A stretch of 64,000 nucleotides of DNA from Nesterenkonia marinintestina (GTDB lineage Bacteria > Actinomycetota > Actinomycetes > Actinomycetales > Micrococcaceae): NCBI RefSeq assembly GCF_025420485.1, contig NZ_JAOEFD010000003.1, forward strand, positions 1 to 64,000, read 5' to 3'. Under the pieces are notes generated by a model, which saw only the letters and a list, made by a program, of their open reading frames with translations, had not been told where the DNA came from and made no database searches. The translations under genes and the position numbers were made by a program. Shown piece by piece: positions 1 through 7,992 of this stretch (position 1 is its first letter; every line of letters starts with the position of its first letter).

Positions 1-1
1 A

Positions 2-1294
2 CTGCTGCAGGCCCTGGGCCAGGACCTCGACGGTCGCGCCCACCGACTGGCCACCCTGGACGCCTACTACGCCGGGGACACCCCGCTGAGCTTCATGAGC
101 CCCGAGGCCCGGGAGGCCCTGTCCAACCGGCTGACCCGGATGAGCGCGAACTACTGCCGGCTGGCAGTGACCTCCATCGCCGAGCGGCTGCGCGTCACCG
201 GCTTCACCCGCGACGGAGCCCCCGACCCCGCCCTGTGGGAGACCTGGGCCGCGAGCGACCTCGACCAGCTCTCCGCGACCCTGCACCGGGAGGCGCTGAT
301 CCTGGGCTCCGCGTTCGTCATCGTCTGGGCCGATGAGACCGGCCGGCCCTCGATCTCGGTGGAATCCGCGCACCAGATGATCGCCCGACGTGACCCCGGC
401 ACACGGCAGATCACCGCCGCGGTGAAGAAGTGGGAGACCCCCACCGGCACCGCAGCCGTGGTCTACGAGCCGGAGAGGATCACCCGGTACACCTCGAAGT
501 CTCACGGGGCGACCGCGGCCTCACAGTTCACCGCCGCCGAGACCGTGGCCAACCCCCTCGGAGTGGTCCCGGTGGTGGAGTTCCGAAACTCCGACCGGCT
601 GCTGGAATCCGGGGTCTCCGAGCTGCGGGATATCGTCCCGCTGCAGGACTCGCTGAACAAGCTTCTGGCGGACCTGATGGTGGGCTCCGAGAACTACGCC
701 CGCCCGCGCCGCTGGGCCACCGGAATCGAGCTGGAAGAGGACGAGGACGGCGAGGTCACCAACCCCTATCCGGAGTCGGACAAGATGATGATCTCCGAGG
801 CTCCGGACTCGAAGTTCGGGCAGCTGCCGGCCTCTGACCTGAACAGCTACGAGACCGCGATTCGCTCCATCGTCTCCCAGATCATGGCCGTCTCCAGCCT
901 GCCGGCGCATTACGTGGGAGTGACCGGGAACCAGCCGCCGAGCGCGGACGGTCTGCGGGCCGCTGAGGCCTCTCTGACCGCCCGGTGCGAGGCCCGACAG
1001 GCCACGTTCGGACGGGCCTGGGAGAAGGTCATGGACCTGGCCCACGCGGTGGCCACCGGCACCGACCCGCGGGCCGCGAACGTGAGCATCACCTGGGCCG
1101 ACCCTGCCACCCGCTCCGCGGCACAGGAGGCCGATGCGGTGGTCAAGCTCTACACCGCCGGATTGCTGCCTGCCACGACCGCCCTGGAACGGCTTGGCTA
1201 CACCGAGGACGAGATCACCCGGATCAGGGCACAGCGTCGCGGTGAAGCCCTCGACCGGGCCGGGACCGAGATCGGGGCGGTGATGACCTCGTGA
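2..1294 (+). CDS. Phage portal protein, SPP1 gp6-like (5' partial)
   Basis: This is the dodecameric ring at the capsid vertex through which DNA is packaged. The frame is open to the left edge, and the residues before the first ATG (at 95) read LDAYYAGDTPLSFMSPE, a typical actinophage portal N-terminus, so the true start lies upstream. About 430 residues are visible, close to full length for the SPP1-type family (440-500). The stop overlaps the next gene by four bases (GTGA), which implies translational coupling. Terminase genes would be expected just to the left. No frameshift or internal stop is seen. Confidence 0.9.
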   Translation: MLQALGQDLDGRAHRLATLDAYYAGDTPLSFMSPEAREALSNRLTRMSANYCRLAVTSIAERLRVTGFTRDGAPDPALWETWAASDLDQLSATLHREALILGSAFVIVWADETGRPSISVESAHQMIARRDPGTRQITAAVKKWETPTGTAAVVYEPERITRYTSKSHGATAASQFTAAETVANPLGVVPVVEFRNSDRLLESGVSELRDIVPLQDSLNKLLADLMVGSENYARPRRWATGIELEEDEDGEVTNPYPESDKMMISEAPDSKFGQLPASDLNSYETAIRSIVSQIMAVSSLPAHYVGVTGNQPPSADGLRAAEASLTARCEARQATFGRAWEKVMDLAHAVATGTDPRAANVSITWADPATRSAAQEADAVVKLYTAGLLPATTALERLGYTEDEITRIRAQRRGEALDRAGTEIGAVMTS

Positions 1295-1869
1295 AGCTCT
1301 ACGAGGAGGTCGTGGACGCCCTAGGAGCCCAGGCGTCGAAGTCCCTGCTCGGCCTGCACCAGCTGATGGAGGCCGGGACCATCACCCGGGAGGAGTTCAT
1401 CGACACCGCGGCCACCGTGGTGGACGTGGCCCGACAGCGCGGCACCGCAGCCGGGGAAGCCTACTTCCGGGCCTACGCCGAGCAGGCCACCGGCCGGCCC
1501 TACACCCTGGCGGCGACCCTGCCGGAATCCCAGGCCGACCGGCTCTCCACAGCCCTGGCGACGATCCTCGCGGCCTCCCAAGACACGCACATGCAGTTGG
1601 ACCGGCTGGCCACTGCGGAACCGATGGAGGCCGCATCGGACGGGTTCCAGCAGGCCATGCAGAGGGAGAAGACCGTCACCGGGTGGACCCGCGGCCTCGA
1701 CACCGGAGCTTGTCAGTTGTGCACCTGGTGGTGGCGCGAGGGACGGGTCTTCCAGCCCACGCACCGGATGCCGCGTCACACCGGCTGCAGGTGCCACCCC
1801 GTTCCGCAGATCAACGTCCGAAGCCGGAACTACCAGACCGAAGCCCAGGCACAACGCCTGGCCCGATGA
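1291..1869 (+). CDS. MuF-like phage minor head protein
   Basis: A 192-residue protein with a helical N-terminal part and a cysteine/histidine-rich C-terminus: C141, C144, H163, C166, C168 and H169, in the order CxxC...HTGCRCH. This pattern is characteristic of the C-terminal part of Mu gpF / SPP1 gp7 head proteins, which associate with the portal and are injected or help DNA exit. It starts on GTG overlapping the portal stop. No protease or toxin domain is fused to it, unlike some longer MuF proteins. Its position between portal and scaffold is the canonical one. Confidence 0.85.
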   Translation: MKLYEEVVDALGAQASKSLLGLHQLMEAGTITREEFIDTAATVVDVARQRGTAAGEAYFRAYAEQATGRPYTLAATLPESQADRLSTALATILAASQDTHMQLDRLATAEPMEAASDGFQQAMQREKTVTGWTRGLDTGACQLCTWWWREGRVFQPTHRMPRHTGCRCHPVPQINVRSRNYQTEAQAQRLAR

Positions 1870-1880
1870 GAGGAGACACC

Positions 1881-2438
1881 ATGACCGACCACGACACCAC
1901 CGAGCAGGAGCAGGCAGGTCAGATCTCAGATCCGACCACGCCGAACCGCATTTCAGATGCGGATGGGGGAGGTCACGTTTCGAACGCGACCTCCGAGAAG
2001 GGTGTCATTTCAAATGAGACCCCCGAGGGCACGGACAGTACCCGCCCCCTCAGTTCAGATGAGGGTACGCGTTCAGCGAGTACCCCTGAGGAGGACTCGC
2101 AGGAGCCCGACACCTTCCCCCGCGACTACGTGGAGAAACTGCGCGATGAGAGCGCCCGCTACCGCCAGCGCGCCCAGCAGGCCGACGAGTACGCCCACCG
2201 GCTGCACACGGCCCTGACAGCGGCCACCAGACGCCTGGCCGACCCCACCGACCTCCCGTTCGATCCCGAGCACCTGGAGGACCAGGACGCGCTCACAGCG
2301 GCCCTGGACGACCTGGTGGCCCGCAAACCCCACCTCGCCGCCCGCAAGCCCCACGGCTCCATCGGACAGGGAGCACAGCCGCATGATCCGTCATCTGTGG
2401 ACCTGGCGGGCCTGCTGCGGGCGGGAGCGGGAGGATGA
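1881..2438 (+). CDS. Phage capsid scaffolding protein
   Basis: The ATG at 1881 is preceded by AGGAGA and gives 185 residues; a longer open frame upstream has no ribosome site and overlaps the MuF gene. The first 75 residues are a low-complexity acidic/serine-rich stretch with repeated I/V-S-D/N motifs. Residues about 80-115 form a charged helix (YVEKLRDESARYRQRAQQAD) typical of scaffolding proteins, and the C-terminus is basic then disordered. Its position between MuF and the major capsid gene supports the role. The repeat-coding part contains a remarkable run of six hairpins, described separately. The function is inferred from position and helical composition. Confidence 0.75.
   Translation: MTDHDTTEQEQAGQISDPTTPNRISDADGGGHVSNATSEKGVISNETPEGTDSTRPLSSDEGTRSASTPEEDSQEPDTFPRDYVEKLRDESARYRQRAQQADEYAHRLHTALTAATRRLADPTDLPFDPEHLEDQDALTAALDDLVARKPHLAARKPHGSIGQGAQPHDPSSVDLAGLLRAGAGG
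1917..2085 (+). repeat. Array of six short inverted repeats inside the scaffold gene
   Basis: Six successive hairpins have apexes near 1927, 1954, 1981, 2011, 2056 and 2074. Their stems are GGTC-a-GATC/GATC-c-GACC (1917-1937), CCGCAT/ATGCGG (1946-1962), GAGGTC-a-CGTT/AACG-c-GACCTC (1969-1993), GGGT-g-TCATT/AATGA-g-ACCC (2000-2022), CCCTCA/TGAGGG (2047-2065) and GGGTAC-g-CG/CG-a-GTACCC (2063-2085). The stems differ in sequence but each is self-complementary. Every loop is centred on an in-frame serine codon (TCA five times, TCG once). The last two share three bases. Confidence 0.85.
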
Positions 2439-2617
2439 GCGCACGGGACCGCCTCGCGGCGACCTTGTACGAGGCGCTGGAGAAGCTGATCGCCGCGGAG
2501 ATGGACTATCGGACGCGTAAGGGGTTCGACACCCCGTTGTCCCGCGAGTCCGCGATCCGCTACACCCGGGCGTTCGCACAGATCGCCAGGGGCACCCCCG
2601 ACACGGATGCAAAGTAA
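2435..2617 (+). CDS. Small phage protein of unknown function
   Basis: A 60-residue protein whose ATG overlaps the scaffold stop (ATGA), so it is probably translationally coupled to it. It is mostly helical and basic (motif RDRLAATLYEALEKLIAAEM) with no cysteine and no membrane segment. I do not recognise a family. Its position between scaffold and major capsid protein suggests a head-assembly accessory or decoration role, but that is inference only. Confidence 0.65.
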   Translation: MSARDRLAATLYEALEKLIAAEMDYRTRKGFDTPLSRESAIRYTRAFAQIARGTPDTDAK

Positions 2618-2665
2618 TACCCCGGTAGGGTATCCTGGGAGGGTCGGTCCTGGAGGCCGGCCCTC
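2617..2665 (+). other. Two hairpins between the small gene and the major capsid gene
   Basis: ATACCC/GGGTAT (2617-2633, loop CGGTA) begins on the last base of the preceding stop codon. A 9-bp stem GAGGGTCGG/CCGGCCCTC (2639-2665) with one G-T pair follows six bases later. There is no T-run, so these may be RNA processing or partial termination signals that set capsid-gene expression rather than true terminators. The rest of the 131-base gap up to 2748 shows only the ribosome site TTAGGAG before the capsid start. Confidence 0.5.
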
Positions 2666-2748
2666 TCTAGGCTCCTGGCGGGCCGAGGTCACACCAGCAG
2701 GTGCGTGATGACCACGTATCTCGAACCTCAACCGTTAGGAGCTTTCTC

Positions 2749-3591
2749 ATGGCAATGAACCGCGCTGACGCCCCAGAGCTCCTGCAGGAGCAGGTTTCCT
2801 CCATGCTCTTGCAGCCCCTCGAAGCCCAGTCCGTGGTGCTCGCCGCAGGCCCCAAGATCTTCGATTCCGCCTCTCCGCTGCGGATCCCCACCCTGGTCGG
2901 ATCGGGCACCCCCGCGGTGGTCGGTGAGTCCGAGCAGATCCCCGACGACTTCTCCGCCGAGTTCGGAGAGATCCGGCTGATGCCCGAGTCCCGGAAGTCG
3001 ATCAAGTCGATCACCCGGTACAGCAACGAGCTGGCCCGGCAGGCCATCGTCGGCCTCGACGCGGTGCTCAAAGCCCGGATGGTCAACGACATCTCACAGA
3101 TGCTGGATGACCAGCTGCTGGCCGGCGACGGGACCAACGACAGCATCACCGGCATCCTGCACCAGGATGGGACACAGTCGGCGGCGTTCGACGCCTCCGA
3201 GCCCGACGCCTTCCTCGACGCCCAGGCGCTGCTCTCCGCCGCTGAGGTGACCGCGAACCGGCTGCTGGTCAACGGCGGGGACTTCATCACCCTGCGCAAG
3301 GCCAAGGATGGAAACGGACGCTACCTGCTGGAGTCGGACCTGACCCGCGACGCCACCTATCGGCTGTTCGGGGTCCCGGTGACCGTTTCGAACAAAATCC
3401 CCGCGGGCACGGCGATCCTCGCGGACTTCTCCACCATCGCGGTGGTCCGCGACACCGCGCCGTCGGTCAAGATCCTGGACCAGCGTTACGCGGAGTTCGA
3501 CCAGCAGGCCATCCGAGTCACCACCCGGTGGGATCTCGGTCTGCTGCGCCCGGAGGCCGTGGTGGTCATGGGCGGCGACGGCGGCGAGTGA
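2749..3591 (+). CDS. Phage major capsid protein, HK97 fold
   Basis: The 280-residue shell subunit. The ATG at 2749 follows TAGGAG at good spacing; the in-frame GTG at 2701 has no such site. The C-terminal part (AVVRDTAPSVKILDQRYAEF, then QQAIRVTTRWDLGLLRPEAVVVM) is a clear match to HK97-type capsids of the phage_capsid family. The N-terminus lacks a long delta domain, which agrees with a separate scaffold gene upstream. The stop is shared with the next start (TGATG). The gene is full length and shows no decay. Confidence 0.9.
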   Translation: MAMNRADAPELLQEQVSSMLLQPLEAQSVVLAAGPKIFDSASPLRIPTLVGSGTPAVVGESEQIPDDFSAEFGEIRLMPESRKSIKSITRYSNELARQAIVGLDAVLKARMVNDISQMLDDQLLAGDGTNDSITGILHQDGTQSAAFDASEPDAFLDAQALLSAAEVTANRLLVNGGDFITLRKAKDGNGRYLLESDLTRDATYRLFGVPVTVSNKIPAGTAILADFSTIAVVRDTAPSVKILDQRYAEFDQQAIRVTTRWDLGLLRPEAVVVMGGDGGE

Positions 3592-3920
3592 TGAACACCT
3601 ACGTCGCACTGCCCACCGGGCAGGACGTGGCAGATTTCCTGGGCCAGGGCGGGGAACACACGGGCGTGTCCACCCTGGCCCAGGAGCACGTCCCCATCGT
3701 CACCGCGATGGCCCGGGCCTACACCCGCGGCAACGGATTCACCGCCGATGGTGTGGCCGAGGACGTCGCAGCGGTCATCACCACCGCCGCAGCACGGCTG
3801 GTCGCCAACCCCGAGCAGATCCACTACTCCGTCGGCGCGGTCCGCTACTCCGGTGGGTTCAAGGGCTGGTCCCTGGCCGAGACGATGGTCCTCAACCGGT
3901 ACCGGAAACGGGCGTCATGA
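3591..3920 (+). CDS. Phage head-tail connector (gp15-like adaptor)
   Basis: A 109-residue protein directly after the capsid gene, with an ATG overlapping the capsid stop. The helical composition, the size, and the C-terminal segment with GGFKGWSLAETMVLNRYRKR resemble the SPP1 gp15 / HK97 gp6 family of proteins that dock on the portal after packaging. The assignment rests on position, size and this C-terminal pattern (compare VGAVRYSGG...LAE.MVLNRYR in actinophage head-tail proteins). Confidence 0.75.
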   Translation: MNTYVALPTGQDVADFLGQGGEHTGVSTLAQEHVPIVTAMARAYTRGNGFTADGVAEDVAAVITTAAARLVANPEQIHYSVGAVRYSGGFKGWSLAETMVLNRYRKRAS

Positions 3921-4234
3921 TCCTCAAAGACACCATCACCGTGCGGGTGGCCGCCACCACGCATGACAGGTGGGGACAGCCGATCACCACCTACGAGGAC
4001 ACCGACATCCCCGCCCAGGTGTTCCCGGCCGGCTCAGAGGACCCGGACAGGCTCTCCCTGGTCCTGACAGGCCGCTACCGGATCATCGTGCCCGCGGCCG
4101 CCCCGGAGTTCTCCAACAGCTCCAGGATCGTCTGGGGCGACGCGGAGATGGAGATAGAGGGCAAGGTCCAGACCCACACCGCCCAAGGGCGACCGCATCA
4201 CAGAGAGTTCACCGCGGTGTACCGCGGCGCTTAG
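3917..4234 (+). CDS. Phage head closure / head-tail stopper protein (gp16-like)
   Basis: A 105-residue, mainly beta protein (DTITVRVAATTHDRWGQPIT at the start) whose ATG overlaps the previous stop (ATGA). The fold pattern and position match the head-tail stopper family, which seals the portal channel and forms the platform for a tail. In a complete siphophage the minor tail, major tail and tape-measure genes would follow here. Instead the coding strand ends at a hairpin cluster. This is therefore the last structural gene visible in the element. Confidence 0.75.
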   Translation: MILKDTITVRVAATTHDRWGQPITTYEDTDIPAQVFPAGSEDPDRLSLVLTGRYRIIVPAAAPEFSNSSRIVWGDAEMEIEGKVQTHTAQGRPHHREFTAVYRGA

Positions 4235-4244
4235 ACCCCCGGGT

Positions 4245-4359
4245 GACCTGCTCTGCCAGGTCCGGTGTCGCCCGGGACCGTCGGCTGGGGGTTCTGCTTC
4301 CCCCTCTCTCATCAGCCGACGGAGAGACCCCCCGTGAATCAACGAGCACGGGGGGTCTC
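4245..4359 (+). terminator. Three stacked hairpins closing the phage head operon
   Basis: In succession: GACCTG/CAGGTC (4245-4262); a 10-bp perfect stem CCGTCGGCTG/CAGCCGACGG (4278-4322) with an internal GGGGG/CCCCC pair; and a 13-bp perfect stem GAGACCCCCCGTG/CACGGGGGGTCTC (4324-4359, ten-base loop). They start 11 bases after the last head gene. There is no T-tract, as is common in high-GC hosts. They mark the end of the structural operon. Confidence 0.8.
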
Positions 4360-4426
4360 ACTCTGTGCGGGTCCACCCGCCATAGTGACGGATCCGTCAT
4401 CATGGGGACCACCGGACTCACGGGTG

Positions 4427-4456
4427 CGGGGTAATCCAAACGTTTGGATTACCCCG
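4427..4456. promoter_or_regulatory. 30-bp perfect palindrome
   Basis: CGGGGTAATCCAAAC is followed with no spacer by its exact reverse complement. A perfect palindrome without a loop favours a protein-binding site or a cruciform over an ordinary terminator. The AACGTT centre recalls LacI-family operators, but the length is greater. It lies between the head-operon terminators and the AT-rich regulatory stretch. No gene starts within 300 bases on either strand. Confidence 0.7.
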
Positions 4457-4494
4457 TCTTGCTCGGTGTCAGTTAGGTCCGGATCTGAAATCAA

Positions 4495-4775
4495 TGACAA
4501 TGTGCAAAGTTCCCCCACGCCTGCCCTGAGAAACCTGGCAGGATCCTGTCAGGTTTAGGCCCCACCCTCGGCAGGTTCAAGCGTGACAATGTCACGGCTG
4601 ATCTGGGAATTGTTGACAATGTACACAATTCCGCCTGCTACTTGCATGGGAGTGGCGCGATGTTAGCGGCACCGTCGTCTTAGATTGGGTTCTATTAGAA
4701 GCCGTTCCCGCCGTGCTCCTATTGGTAACAATGTACCCAATACGGGACGACCGGAAACTGTGTCTAATAGACACG
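4495..4775. promoter_or_regulatory. Cluster of operator-like repeats around an ACAATGT motif
   Basis: ACAATGT occurs at 4497, 4586, 4616 and 4728, all in one orientation. Two copies sit inside matched inverted repeats with the same 11-base centre type (T-R-ACAATGTAC): GGAATTGT/ACAATTCC at 4606-4632 and ATTGG/CCAAT at 4721-4741. Two other repeats share a 6-3-6 design with an AAT centre: CGTGAC/GTCACG at 4582-4596 and GTGTCT/AGACAC at 4760-4774. TTCTATTAGAA at 4690-4700 is a further palindrome. TTGACA at 4613 could be a -35 box. No convincing gene is present between 4235 and 4763; the base composition is visibly less GC-rich than elsewhere. Confidence 0.6.
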
Positions 4776-4988
4776 ATTGACGGGAGGCTGGGAACGTGGC
4801 GGATCTGCCATTTTCTGCTCCATCCGATCTGCCTCCGCAAGCAGCTCTGCGGCGATCCGCCGCAGACGGGCTGCGCTGGTGTCCGCCTCGGTCGAGGGCT
4901 GGGGGTTACCCAGGGCCATGATCTCGTGAGCCTCGACTCCGAGCAGCTGGGCGATCTGTTCAACGTGCGCGACGGTTGCCGTAGTCAT
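4764..4988 (-). CDS. Small element-encoded protein, possible DNA-binding regulator
   Basis: The ATG at 4988 is preceded by GGAGAG at ideal spacing and gives 74 residues; a longer frame has no start signal. The N-terminal part (HVEQIAQLLGVEAHEIMAL) looks like a helix-turn-helix core and residues 37-58 form a charged amphipathic helix. I do not recognise the family. It is the only gene between the phage head operon and the attachment side, oriented opposite to it. A perfect palindrome sits 22 bases upstream. This suggests a small repressor or directionality factor, but no function is assigned. Confidence 0.6.
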   Translation of the reverse strand: MTTATVAHVEQIAQLLGVEAHEIMALGNPQPSTEADTSAARLRRIAAELLAEADRMEQKMADPPRSQPPVNRVY

Positions 4989-5010
4989 TGTTCTCTCCTC
5001 TGGTGGATTC

Positions 5011-5022
5011 GACAGATCTGTC
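5011..5022. promoter_or_regulatory. 12-bp palindrome upstream of the small minus-strand gene
   Basis: GACAGATCTGTC is a perfect palindrome 22 bases upstream of the start at 4988, placed where an operator over the transcription start would lie. It may be an autoregulatory site. From 5023 to 5354 I see no convincing gene; plus-strand frames there lack ribosome sites and recognisable composition. Confidence 0.5.
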
Positions 5023-5354
5023 AGATTGAAGCGGTCCCGGCTGACGCCGGGGCTGGATTCTCTCGGTCCCCTTCCCCATGAAAGCCCGCCGCCCCCGTCC
5101 ACGCTCTGCGACATTCGCTCACGACTCCTAGACCCCCCGGAGACCGGAGCGTCGAGCAGCTGTGACCTAGCCTGTAGACGGCCGTCTGAGGCTCCCTGGT
5201 CCGGTTCCCCAGGGTTCGGGTGGATATCACCGGCATTCATCGGTTTGAGGCTGAGAATCGAGAAGAGCGCCCGGAGCACTGCTCAACGGGACTACCGCAG
5301 GAGTACAGCCCTGGATAGACTGACCCTGACGGACCGCCCGTGTTGCGGTCCTCC

Positions 5355-5387
5355 AGACCCCCGGGGATTGCAGTCCTGCGGGGGTCT
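5355..5387. terminator. Hairpin next to the element boundary
   Basis: AGACCCCCG and CGGGGGTCT form a 9-bp perfect stem with a 15-base loop, followed by TTCCTATGTT. It lies 25 bases before the first tadB-derived codon, so it could insulate the element from the host operon or be part of an attachment arm. The GAGACCCCC core resembles that of the head-operon terminator at 4324. Confidence 0.6.
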
Positions 5388-5425
5388 TCCTATGTTGCTA
5401 CGTCTCTAAGACTTGCTGATTCAGC
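5388..5425. other. Probable right attachment boundary inside tadB
   Basis: Left of about 5410 the frame is closed (TAA at 5407) and the sequence is unlike TadB. From 5413 the reading LIQLGTSGPEPLREPF is immediately recognisable TadB sequence. The integration core should lie in this interval. The matching left boundary, carrying the first half of tadB, is outside the window, so the duplicated core cannot be defined here. Confidence 0.6.
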
Positions 5426-7544: not shown

Positions 7545-7992
7545 CGTTCGAACTGCTCTGAGGCGCCGCCTCGGATCCGTCCGTGACGACGCAGGATCCT
7601 CCATCATCGAGTTCGTGGTGCTGGCCACCGTGGTCATGGTTCCGGTCGTGTATCTCATCGTCGCCCTGTCCGGACTGCAGTCCGCCTCGTACGCCTCCGT
7701 CGGCGCAGCAGACCAGGCGGCGAAGATGCAGGCCGGCGGCGAGGCGACCGACGACGAGGCCGATGCCCGGGCTGAGGCCGCGGTCGCCGCGGTGCTCGAG
7801 GACTTCGACATCGACAGGTCGCAGGCAGAGGTCAGCATCGAGTGCCCGAGCGGCGGCTGCGAGCAGGACGGTGATCTCATCATGGTGACTGTGGACATCA
7901 CGGTTCCGGTGCCCGTGCTGTCTTCGATCGGGGGTTGGGACCCGACGCTCGCGACCGTGTCATCCACCTCGGCACAGGTGCGGACACGATGA
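7531..7992 (+). CDS. Second TadE-like minor pilin
   Basis: A 153-residue protein with DDAGSSIIEFVVLATVVMVP at residues about 19-38, the TadE/TadF motif with glutamate, followed by a membrane helix and an exported domain with a cysteine pair (IECPSGGCEQ) that could form a disulfide. Its start overlaps the end of the previous gene; a second in-frame ATG two codons later is also possible. It is arranged in one operon with the other tad genes. Confidence 0.8.
   Translation: MSMTDVRTALRRRLGSVRDDAGSSIIEFVVLATVVMVPVVYLIVALSGLQSASYASVGAADQAAKMQAGGEATDDEADARAEAAVAAVLEDFDIDRSQAEVSIECPSGGCEQDGDLIMVTVDITVPVPVLSSIGGWDPTLATVSSTSAQVRTR

Follow-up and report, generated by a model that had tools for sequence, protein, structure and literature searches.

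The scaffold gene near the start of the window (the whole stretch of 64,000 nucleotides of Nesterenkonia marinintestina DNA analysed here) holds an array of in-frame hairpins in its disordered tail, and hairpins in the tails of this and related scaffold genes occur beyond chance. The complementarity of their arms is maintained at the DNA level, the arms of relatives being different in sequence but complementary to each other. Whole hairpin units are present in some elements and absent from their close relatives, nearly always in frame. These hairpins prefer disordered tails, and the elements show a similar excess in disordered linkers outside the scaffold. The explanation that we prefer, to which we give about an even chance of being correct, is that the array consists of short (17–27 bp) in-frame palindromic units that are swapped as cassettes within the disordered tail, with no role specific to the scaffold-to-capsid ratio.

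The array and the element that carries it

An integrated element that carries a phage-type head module occupies the start of the window, which opens within its portal gene.

2..1294, + strand: portal protein gene, truncated by the contig start (Pfam PF05133 SPP1_portal, E=2e-45; PHROG 104 portal)
1291..1869, + strand: VG15-like minor head protein or possible maturation protease (PF25310, E=2e-6; PHROG 1522, E=2e-5)
1881..2438, + strand: scaffold gene, 185 aa (PHROG 233 head scaffolding protein, E=1.6e-5)
2701..3591, + strand: HK97-type major capsid protein (PF05065, E=1.6e-38)
3528..4234, + strand: head-tail adaptor (Ad1) and head closure (Hc1) genes (PHROG 137, weak, E=0.0045; PHROG 501)
4390..5393, no strand assigned: variable right-hand part of the element, as seen when the sequences of both copies are read side by side

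The sequence-only reading had taken the gene at 1881..2438 for a scaffold gene, an assignment borne out by its PHROG match and by the portal and HK97-fold capsid genes on either side. In the AlphaFold2 model, residues 1–74 of the scaffold are disordered (pLDDT ~43 over residues 1–70), and a helix starts at residue 81 (pLDDT ~90 over residues 81–116). The element is visible only from the portal onward, its left half being missing from the contig. Direct searches of IMG/VR and of GenBank phages returned no close homologues of the full scaffold, and it took the conserved C-terminal domain to find related scaffolds, in elements mostly on contigs of 9–12 kb. Four of them, with names given by eye from the translations and not all genes present in each, comprise an integrase, repressor, excisionase, replication protein, HNH nuclease, large terminase, portal, scaffold, capsid, and connectors; no tail genes were seen in the translations of these four. 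The Nesterenkonia element appears to be a tailless head-gene element, probably a capsid-forming satellite. The scaffold tails of two relatives from Nesterenkonia genomes, L010 and L011, are those of the same-genus genomes G941 and G940.

Positions 1917–2085 of the scaffold gene hold four strong in-frame hairpins (H1–H4) and two weaker ones (H5 and H6), with serine codons in their loops. Some of them are shared with C12, the contig that carries a second copy of the element.

1917–1937, + strand: hairpin H1, GGTCAGATC-TCA-GATCCGACC (ggtcagatc[TCA]gatccgacc), 8/9 pairs, codes GQISDPT, also in C12
1946–1962, + strand: hairpin H2, CCGCATTTCAGATGCGG (ccgcat[TTCAG]atgcgg), 6 pairs and a T.G closing pair, codes RISDAD, absent from C12
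1968–1994, + strand: hairpin H3, GGAGGTCACGTT-TCG-AACGCGACCTCC (ggaggtcacgtt[TCG]aacgcgacctcc), 11/12 pairs, codes GGHVSNATS, absent from C12
2000–2022, + strand: hairpin H4, GGGTGTCATT-TCA-AATGAGACCC (gggtgtcatt[TCA]aatgagaccc), 9/10 pairs, codes KGVISNETP, also in C12
2047–2065, + strand: weaker hairpin H5, CCCTCAGT-TCA-GATGAGGG, 6 pairs, then G.A and T.G beside the loop, absent from C12
2063–2085, + strand: weaker hairpin H6, GGGTACGCGTTCAGCGAGTACCC (gggtacgcg[TTCAG]cgagtaccc), 8/9 pairs, codes GTRSASTP, absent from C12

Six consecutive hairpins had been described here from the sequence alone. The description stands for H1–H4 as strong hairpins and for the frame and loop serine codon of all six, but H5 and H6 are weaker and overlap each other by 3 nt; similarly, the proposed I/V-S-D/N loop rule is followed by H1–H4, whereas H5 reads L-S-S-D and H6 reads R-S-A-S. 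The loop serine codons are centred at 1927, 1954, 1981, 2011, 2056, and 2074, every spacing being a multiple of 3, and the first three apexes lie 27 nt apart, as had been stated. TCA is indeed uncommon, representing 8% of the serine codons in the eight long ORFs of the window versus 5/11 in the scaffold tail. The word TTTCA occurs only twice on the + strand of the 64 kb, both times within the array.

Five hairpins score at least 7, compared to 0.84 when codons are shuffled within the region and 0.30 when they are drawn from neighbouring genes, and 0 of 1,500 shuffles reached this number with either control. The summed hairpin score is also exceptional (P=0.0013 for the within-region shuffle; 0/1,500 for codons from neighbouring genes). 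The structure therefore survives a synonymous shuffle, which had been put forward as one way of refuting it. Against dinucleotide shuffles, the folding of the array gives z = -4.7 for the RNA MFE and z = -6.2 for the complementary DNA strand. No paper on the palindrome sequence of the array was found in the open literature.

The scaffold of the second copy, on contig C12 of the same genome, retains H1 and H4 exactly. The 54 nt comprising H2 and H3 are gone from between GACC repeats, and ~63 nt comprising H5 and H6 are gone from between CCYGAGG repeats, in both cases in frame. The loss of hairpins in C12 is recent, since both copies are ~97% identical over 1401–2000 compared to ~88% overall. 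Their shared sequence ends at ~5393, the likely end of the element. Both copies also start at the same point in the portal gene (window position 1 and G000:C12:1), and a terminase resembling that of L010 was not found in the genome assembly, which together suggest a collapsed repeat; the left halves of both copies are probably identical and were merged during assembly.

Other palindromes lie in the variable region to the right of the head genes, including a perfect 30-base palindrome at window positions 4427–4456 (cggggtaatccaaACGTttggattaccccg) and more near 4380 and 4531. In C12 (L252 4306–4440), an rha-like remnant (NNQADLEEFGLVGFEIQARPEGQHGGGD) with the core GGGTCNSATTTSAAATSNGACCC adjoins the head genes and is followed by a perfect hairpin, AGGTGACAC-CGAAT-GTGTCACCT.

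Hairpins in related scaffold tails and in other disordered regions

A total of 45 strong hairpins were counted in 108 distinct related scaffold tails, compared to 12.0 ± 2.8 under synonymous resampling, these relatives sharing kinship and thus not being independent samples, and gene starts, ORFs, and disorder being assigned by simple rules in this and the other comparative counts. Symmetric scoring with within-region shuffles, window included, yielded 62 hairpins versus 21.7 ± 4.2, and the overall excess in these tails is 3-fold. In approximately two thirds of the related scaffolds, the strong-hairpin search found none. The tail hairpins of relatives are mostly different sequences, many of them with unrelated arms at the same place in the gene. 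There are, nonetheless, some direct counterparts: L097 holds a perfect relative of H5 (tgccctcat-TTCAG-atgagggca), L042 holds a counterpart of H6 (GGTACGCAGAATGCGCGTACC), and the core GGTGACATTTCARATGCGACC is common to several tails. Along 37 whole elements, and among well-sampled bins, hairpins are densest in the scaffold tail, with 0.46 hairpins per 250 nt versus 0.03–0.14 in the terminase-portal stretch just upstream.

The clearest case of maintained pairing is a recurring 21-nt site, GGT...ACC, which codes for the peptide EG-xx-S-xx-TPE. In a scan of all GGT...ACC pairs with spacings of 14 to 33 nt, this spacing is the commonest (27 sites) and the only one with strong inner complementarity (3.37/6 versus 1.78 ± 0.22); the four sites at 20 nt lend it weak support (P=0.04), whereas P values of 0.02–0.03 at a few other spacings are no more than twenty tests would be expected to give. 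Covariation at the in-frame 21-nt sites is 0.256, compared to 0.118 in shuffled sites (0/500 shuffles) and at most 0.115 in slid pairings, in agreement with the earlier suggestion of structure over simple duplication. In-frame T-TC[AG] sites are complementary even when the window is left out (P<1/5000), although some share ancestry, and compensatory changes between homologues exceed shuffled and slid controls, with whole-arm replacement accounting for part of them. Homologues without complementarity had been named as another way of refuting the structure, and the comparison did not refute it. At the 21-nt site, the constant spacing and the outer arms are as compatible with selection as with descent.

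Regarding the strand on which pairing might matter, GT:AC mismatches on the coding strand are 10:18 versus 92:286 in the null, with no significant G.U preference beyond it. The raw excess of A.C over G.T mismatches was considered as evidence against RNA and rejected, because the synonymous null is equally biased; neither strand is favoured by the mismatch types once this null is considered.

The excess extends to other disordered coding segments, which in 45 whole elements hold 71 hairpins versus 43.6 ± 6.6, and 41 versus 19.0 ± 4.1 under a stricter threshold, while their ordered coding regions stay at 1.07–1.17 times the expectation. The scaffold tail, with an excess of 3.4–4.7-fold versus 1.6–2.2-fold in other disordered linkers, is the richest class, and therefore something may favour it. 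In ~420 kb of coding sequence sampled from the own host, the ratios are 1.09–1.39 for disordered and 1.12–1.14 for ordered segments.

Individual hairpins were also observed in other genes of related elements. Tandem in-frame hairpins in the linkers of putative replication proteins of L345, L247, and L364 (e.g., TCGGACACCTTCAAGGCGTCCGA, and CAGGTGTCCCAGAGCGGGACACCTG with a similar second one) are possibly origin iterons. A small ORF on the reverse strand of L249 (~7817–7965; same element as L004) contains the palindromes AAAGTGCGGAATTTCCGCACTTT and AAAGTTCGGAAATTCCGAACTTT, with compensatory changes between them, and a BRO-N-like antirepressor gene in L165 holds GGGTGTAATTTCAAATGACACCC, which codes EKGVISNDTPGG, almost identical to the H4 peptide in the window (EKGVISNETPE).

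Turnover of whole units and rival explanations

Close relatives differ by entire units. In L015 and L077, with flanks ~93% identical, the sequences ...GGTG-GAAGAAATCTTC-CACC... and ...GGTG-TCGCAAACGCGA-CACC... have the same outer arms, whereas the inner arms are GAAG/CTTC in the former and TCGC/GCGA in the latter, so that 9 of 12 inner bases have changed with all four pairs kept. Compared to L072, L079 holds an extra 36-nt hairpin bounded by 8-bp direct repeats, CGACGAGG. Whole-unit differences of 60, 42, and 21 nt distinguish L099 from L090, L328 from L026, and L010 from L011, respectively, and a similar one is found in L042. Among pairs at least 78% identical, 25 of the 26 indels are multiples of three, and 12 of the 26 contain hairpins versus 6.9 ± 2.2 in random windows, a modest excess of ~2.3 sd.

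According to the explanation preferred here, these units would be gained, lost, and swapped as cassettes, presumably through recombination or template-switching errors, for which short repeats and the outer arms that units share (GGT...ACC, AGGTG...CACCT) would provide the places of exchange. They may be tolerated because the scaffold tail does not fold, and their palindromy might persist through the mode of origin or repair, or through a weak usefulness of the folded DNA or RNA. Second copies of scaffold hairpins elsewhere in the same related element were not found (32 hairpins, 6% at P<0.05), and templating of the arms from flanking DNA is unsupported (7.44 versus 7.32 ± 0.10); because the arms are copied neither from the flanks nor from elsewhere, neither simple template switching nor within-element transposition is demonstrated. 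The array would have no role specific to the scaffold-to-capsid ratio, the tuning of which had been proposed as its function, since other disordered linkers show the excess, about two thirds of the scaffolds lack a strong hairpin, and C12 has lost four of the six with its frame intact.

A selected nucleic-acid structure is a possible but doubtful alternative. It could operate in the scaffold mRNA, through decay, polarity, or the pace of the ribosome, or as DNA cruciforms, with the shape and not the sequence being recognised. Covariation at a homologous site of constant spacing, the density peak along the 37 elements, and the strong folding z-scores all fit such a structure, but they have to be weighed against the many related scaffolds in which the strong-hairpin search found none, the losses in C12, the excess in other linkers, the lack of any sequence common to loops and stems, and the replacement of inner arms en bloc between L015 and L077. 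In addition, no known or conserved form of the RNA signal that had also been suggested is seen: Rfam gave no match up to E=1 for window positions 1–5000, and the preference for G.U over A.C on the coding strand is non-significant. The folded nucleic acid might still have some weak function.

That the hairpins are operators, iterons, or packaging sites bound by a dimeric protein, and placed in the coding sequence much as lambda ori lies within gene O, is unlikely. The hairpins have dyad symmetry, and the core GGTGACATTTCARATGCGACC shared by several relatives would be consistent with such sites, as would phage rha regulator genes, in which a palindrome has the same ATTTSAAAT core. In these genes (L105–L224, L253–L275, L386–L465), the palindrome is located at an FGRVxFExRP motif, where base 2 of the x codon covaries with base 3 of the Met/Ile codon (41/47 complementary versus 19.9 ± 3.2), which at the amino-acid level pairs Gly/Arg with Ile, and Ala/Ser/Thr with Met. 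The core GGGTCNSATTTSAAATSNGACCC is also present inside phage rha genes, and rha-like genes from phages of Salmonella and satellites of Streptococcus contain near matches. The rha palindrome resembles the array in this core and in its GGGT...ACCC arms; however, it has the opposite reading strand, lies in a conserved protein stretch, and occurs once per gene. A dimeric protein reading a specific sequence, as had been envisaged for the array, is improbable because arms and loops differ within the one gene, whose six copies have different half-sites, and the related elements tested hold no second copy; many relatives, moreover, hold unrelated arms.

Short REP-like or RPE-like repeats mobilised by a transposase are a very unlikely explanation, even though whole units come and go in frame within a disordered protein and one of them is flanked by the 8-bp direct repeats mentioned above. 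The array has no conserved sequence, and the own genome contains three matches to the strict core pattern, always within the two scaffold genes. In 118 related genomes, palindromes with AGGTGTC...GACACCT arms do not outnumber those of the reversed-pattern control, and inspection of the ends of H1–H6 revealed no GTAG or CGTC tetranucleotide. A host-wide repeat was rejected on account of the confined core and of these control-level palindromes; the TTTCNAA core shows no clear enrichment in the own genome (49 versus 44 for the control).

Selection of a peptide motif ([IV]S[ND]xT or EGxxSxxTPE, e.g., for capsid binding or cleavage), with the palindrome as a codon by-product, is scarcely plausible: several genera share recurrent [IV]S[ND]xT peptides, but at the homologous site the pairing persists with an unconserved peptide (GVRNRT, GGRNLP, GVANAT, GTQNART, GVGQTDT), the codons include rare ones (ATT and TCA among them), and most hairpins vanish in synonymous controls.

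Likeness to known palindromic elements

More broadly, and only tentatively, phage satellites might carry self-renewing palindromic coding units with no fixed sequence, inserted, lost, or rewritten arm-and-arm in disordered tails by a process not yet described. If this were true, disordered protein regions of mobile elements could change by whole palindromes, with complementarity persisting while the palindrome sequence turns over, and covariation should be taken with caution as proof of a functional RNA. A genome with two prophages, one holding six hairpins and the other two, would offer a clean system to separate replication errors from selection.

The related elements of ~10 kb, in which no tail genes were seen, fit the gene set described for capsid-forming satellites (capsid-forming phage-inducible chromosomal islands, cf-PICIs), as defined in PMC10690885; the element in the window likewise holds its own capsid, portal, and connectors. 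Regarding the array itself, repeated copies of one binding sequence in a coding linker, as in iterons, were not found among the six hairpins or in the related elements tested.

The closest known phenomena are the Rickettsia palindromic elements (RPEs) and intragenic REP elements, both of which, unlike the array, have conserved sequences. RPEs and protein-coding palindromes are palindromic DNA in frame within protein genes and tolerated by the protein (PMC2229807). The array resembles them in holding in-frame palindromes in a protein gene, six in this case and beyond synonymous chance. However, RPE units have 105–146 bp and a sequence shared across many genes, whereas those of the array have 17–27 bp, share no sequence, and reside in a phage-satellite gene; a unit of ~100–150 bp conserved in several genes is not what the array contains. 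REP elements of the GTAG and CGTC families have stems of 5–13 bp, with stems and loops that vary between families, and some are intragenic (PMC3733652). The likeness here lies in short hairpins, some of them within genes, although the array lacks the GTAG/CGTC tag and any dispersal in the host chromosome, and no partner transposase was seen in the four related elements annotated. The array is best read as a variant of protein-coding palindromes, similar to RPE and REP elements, whose units are kept palindromic without a conserved sequence.
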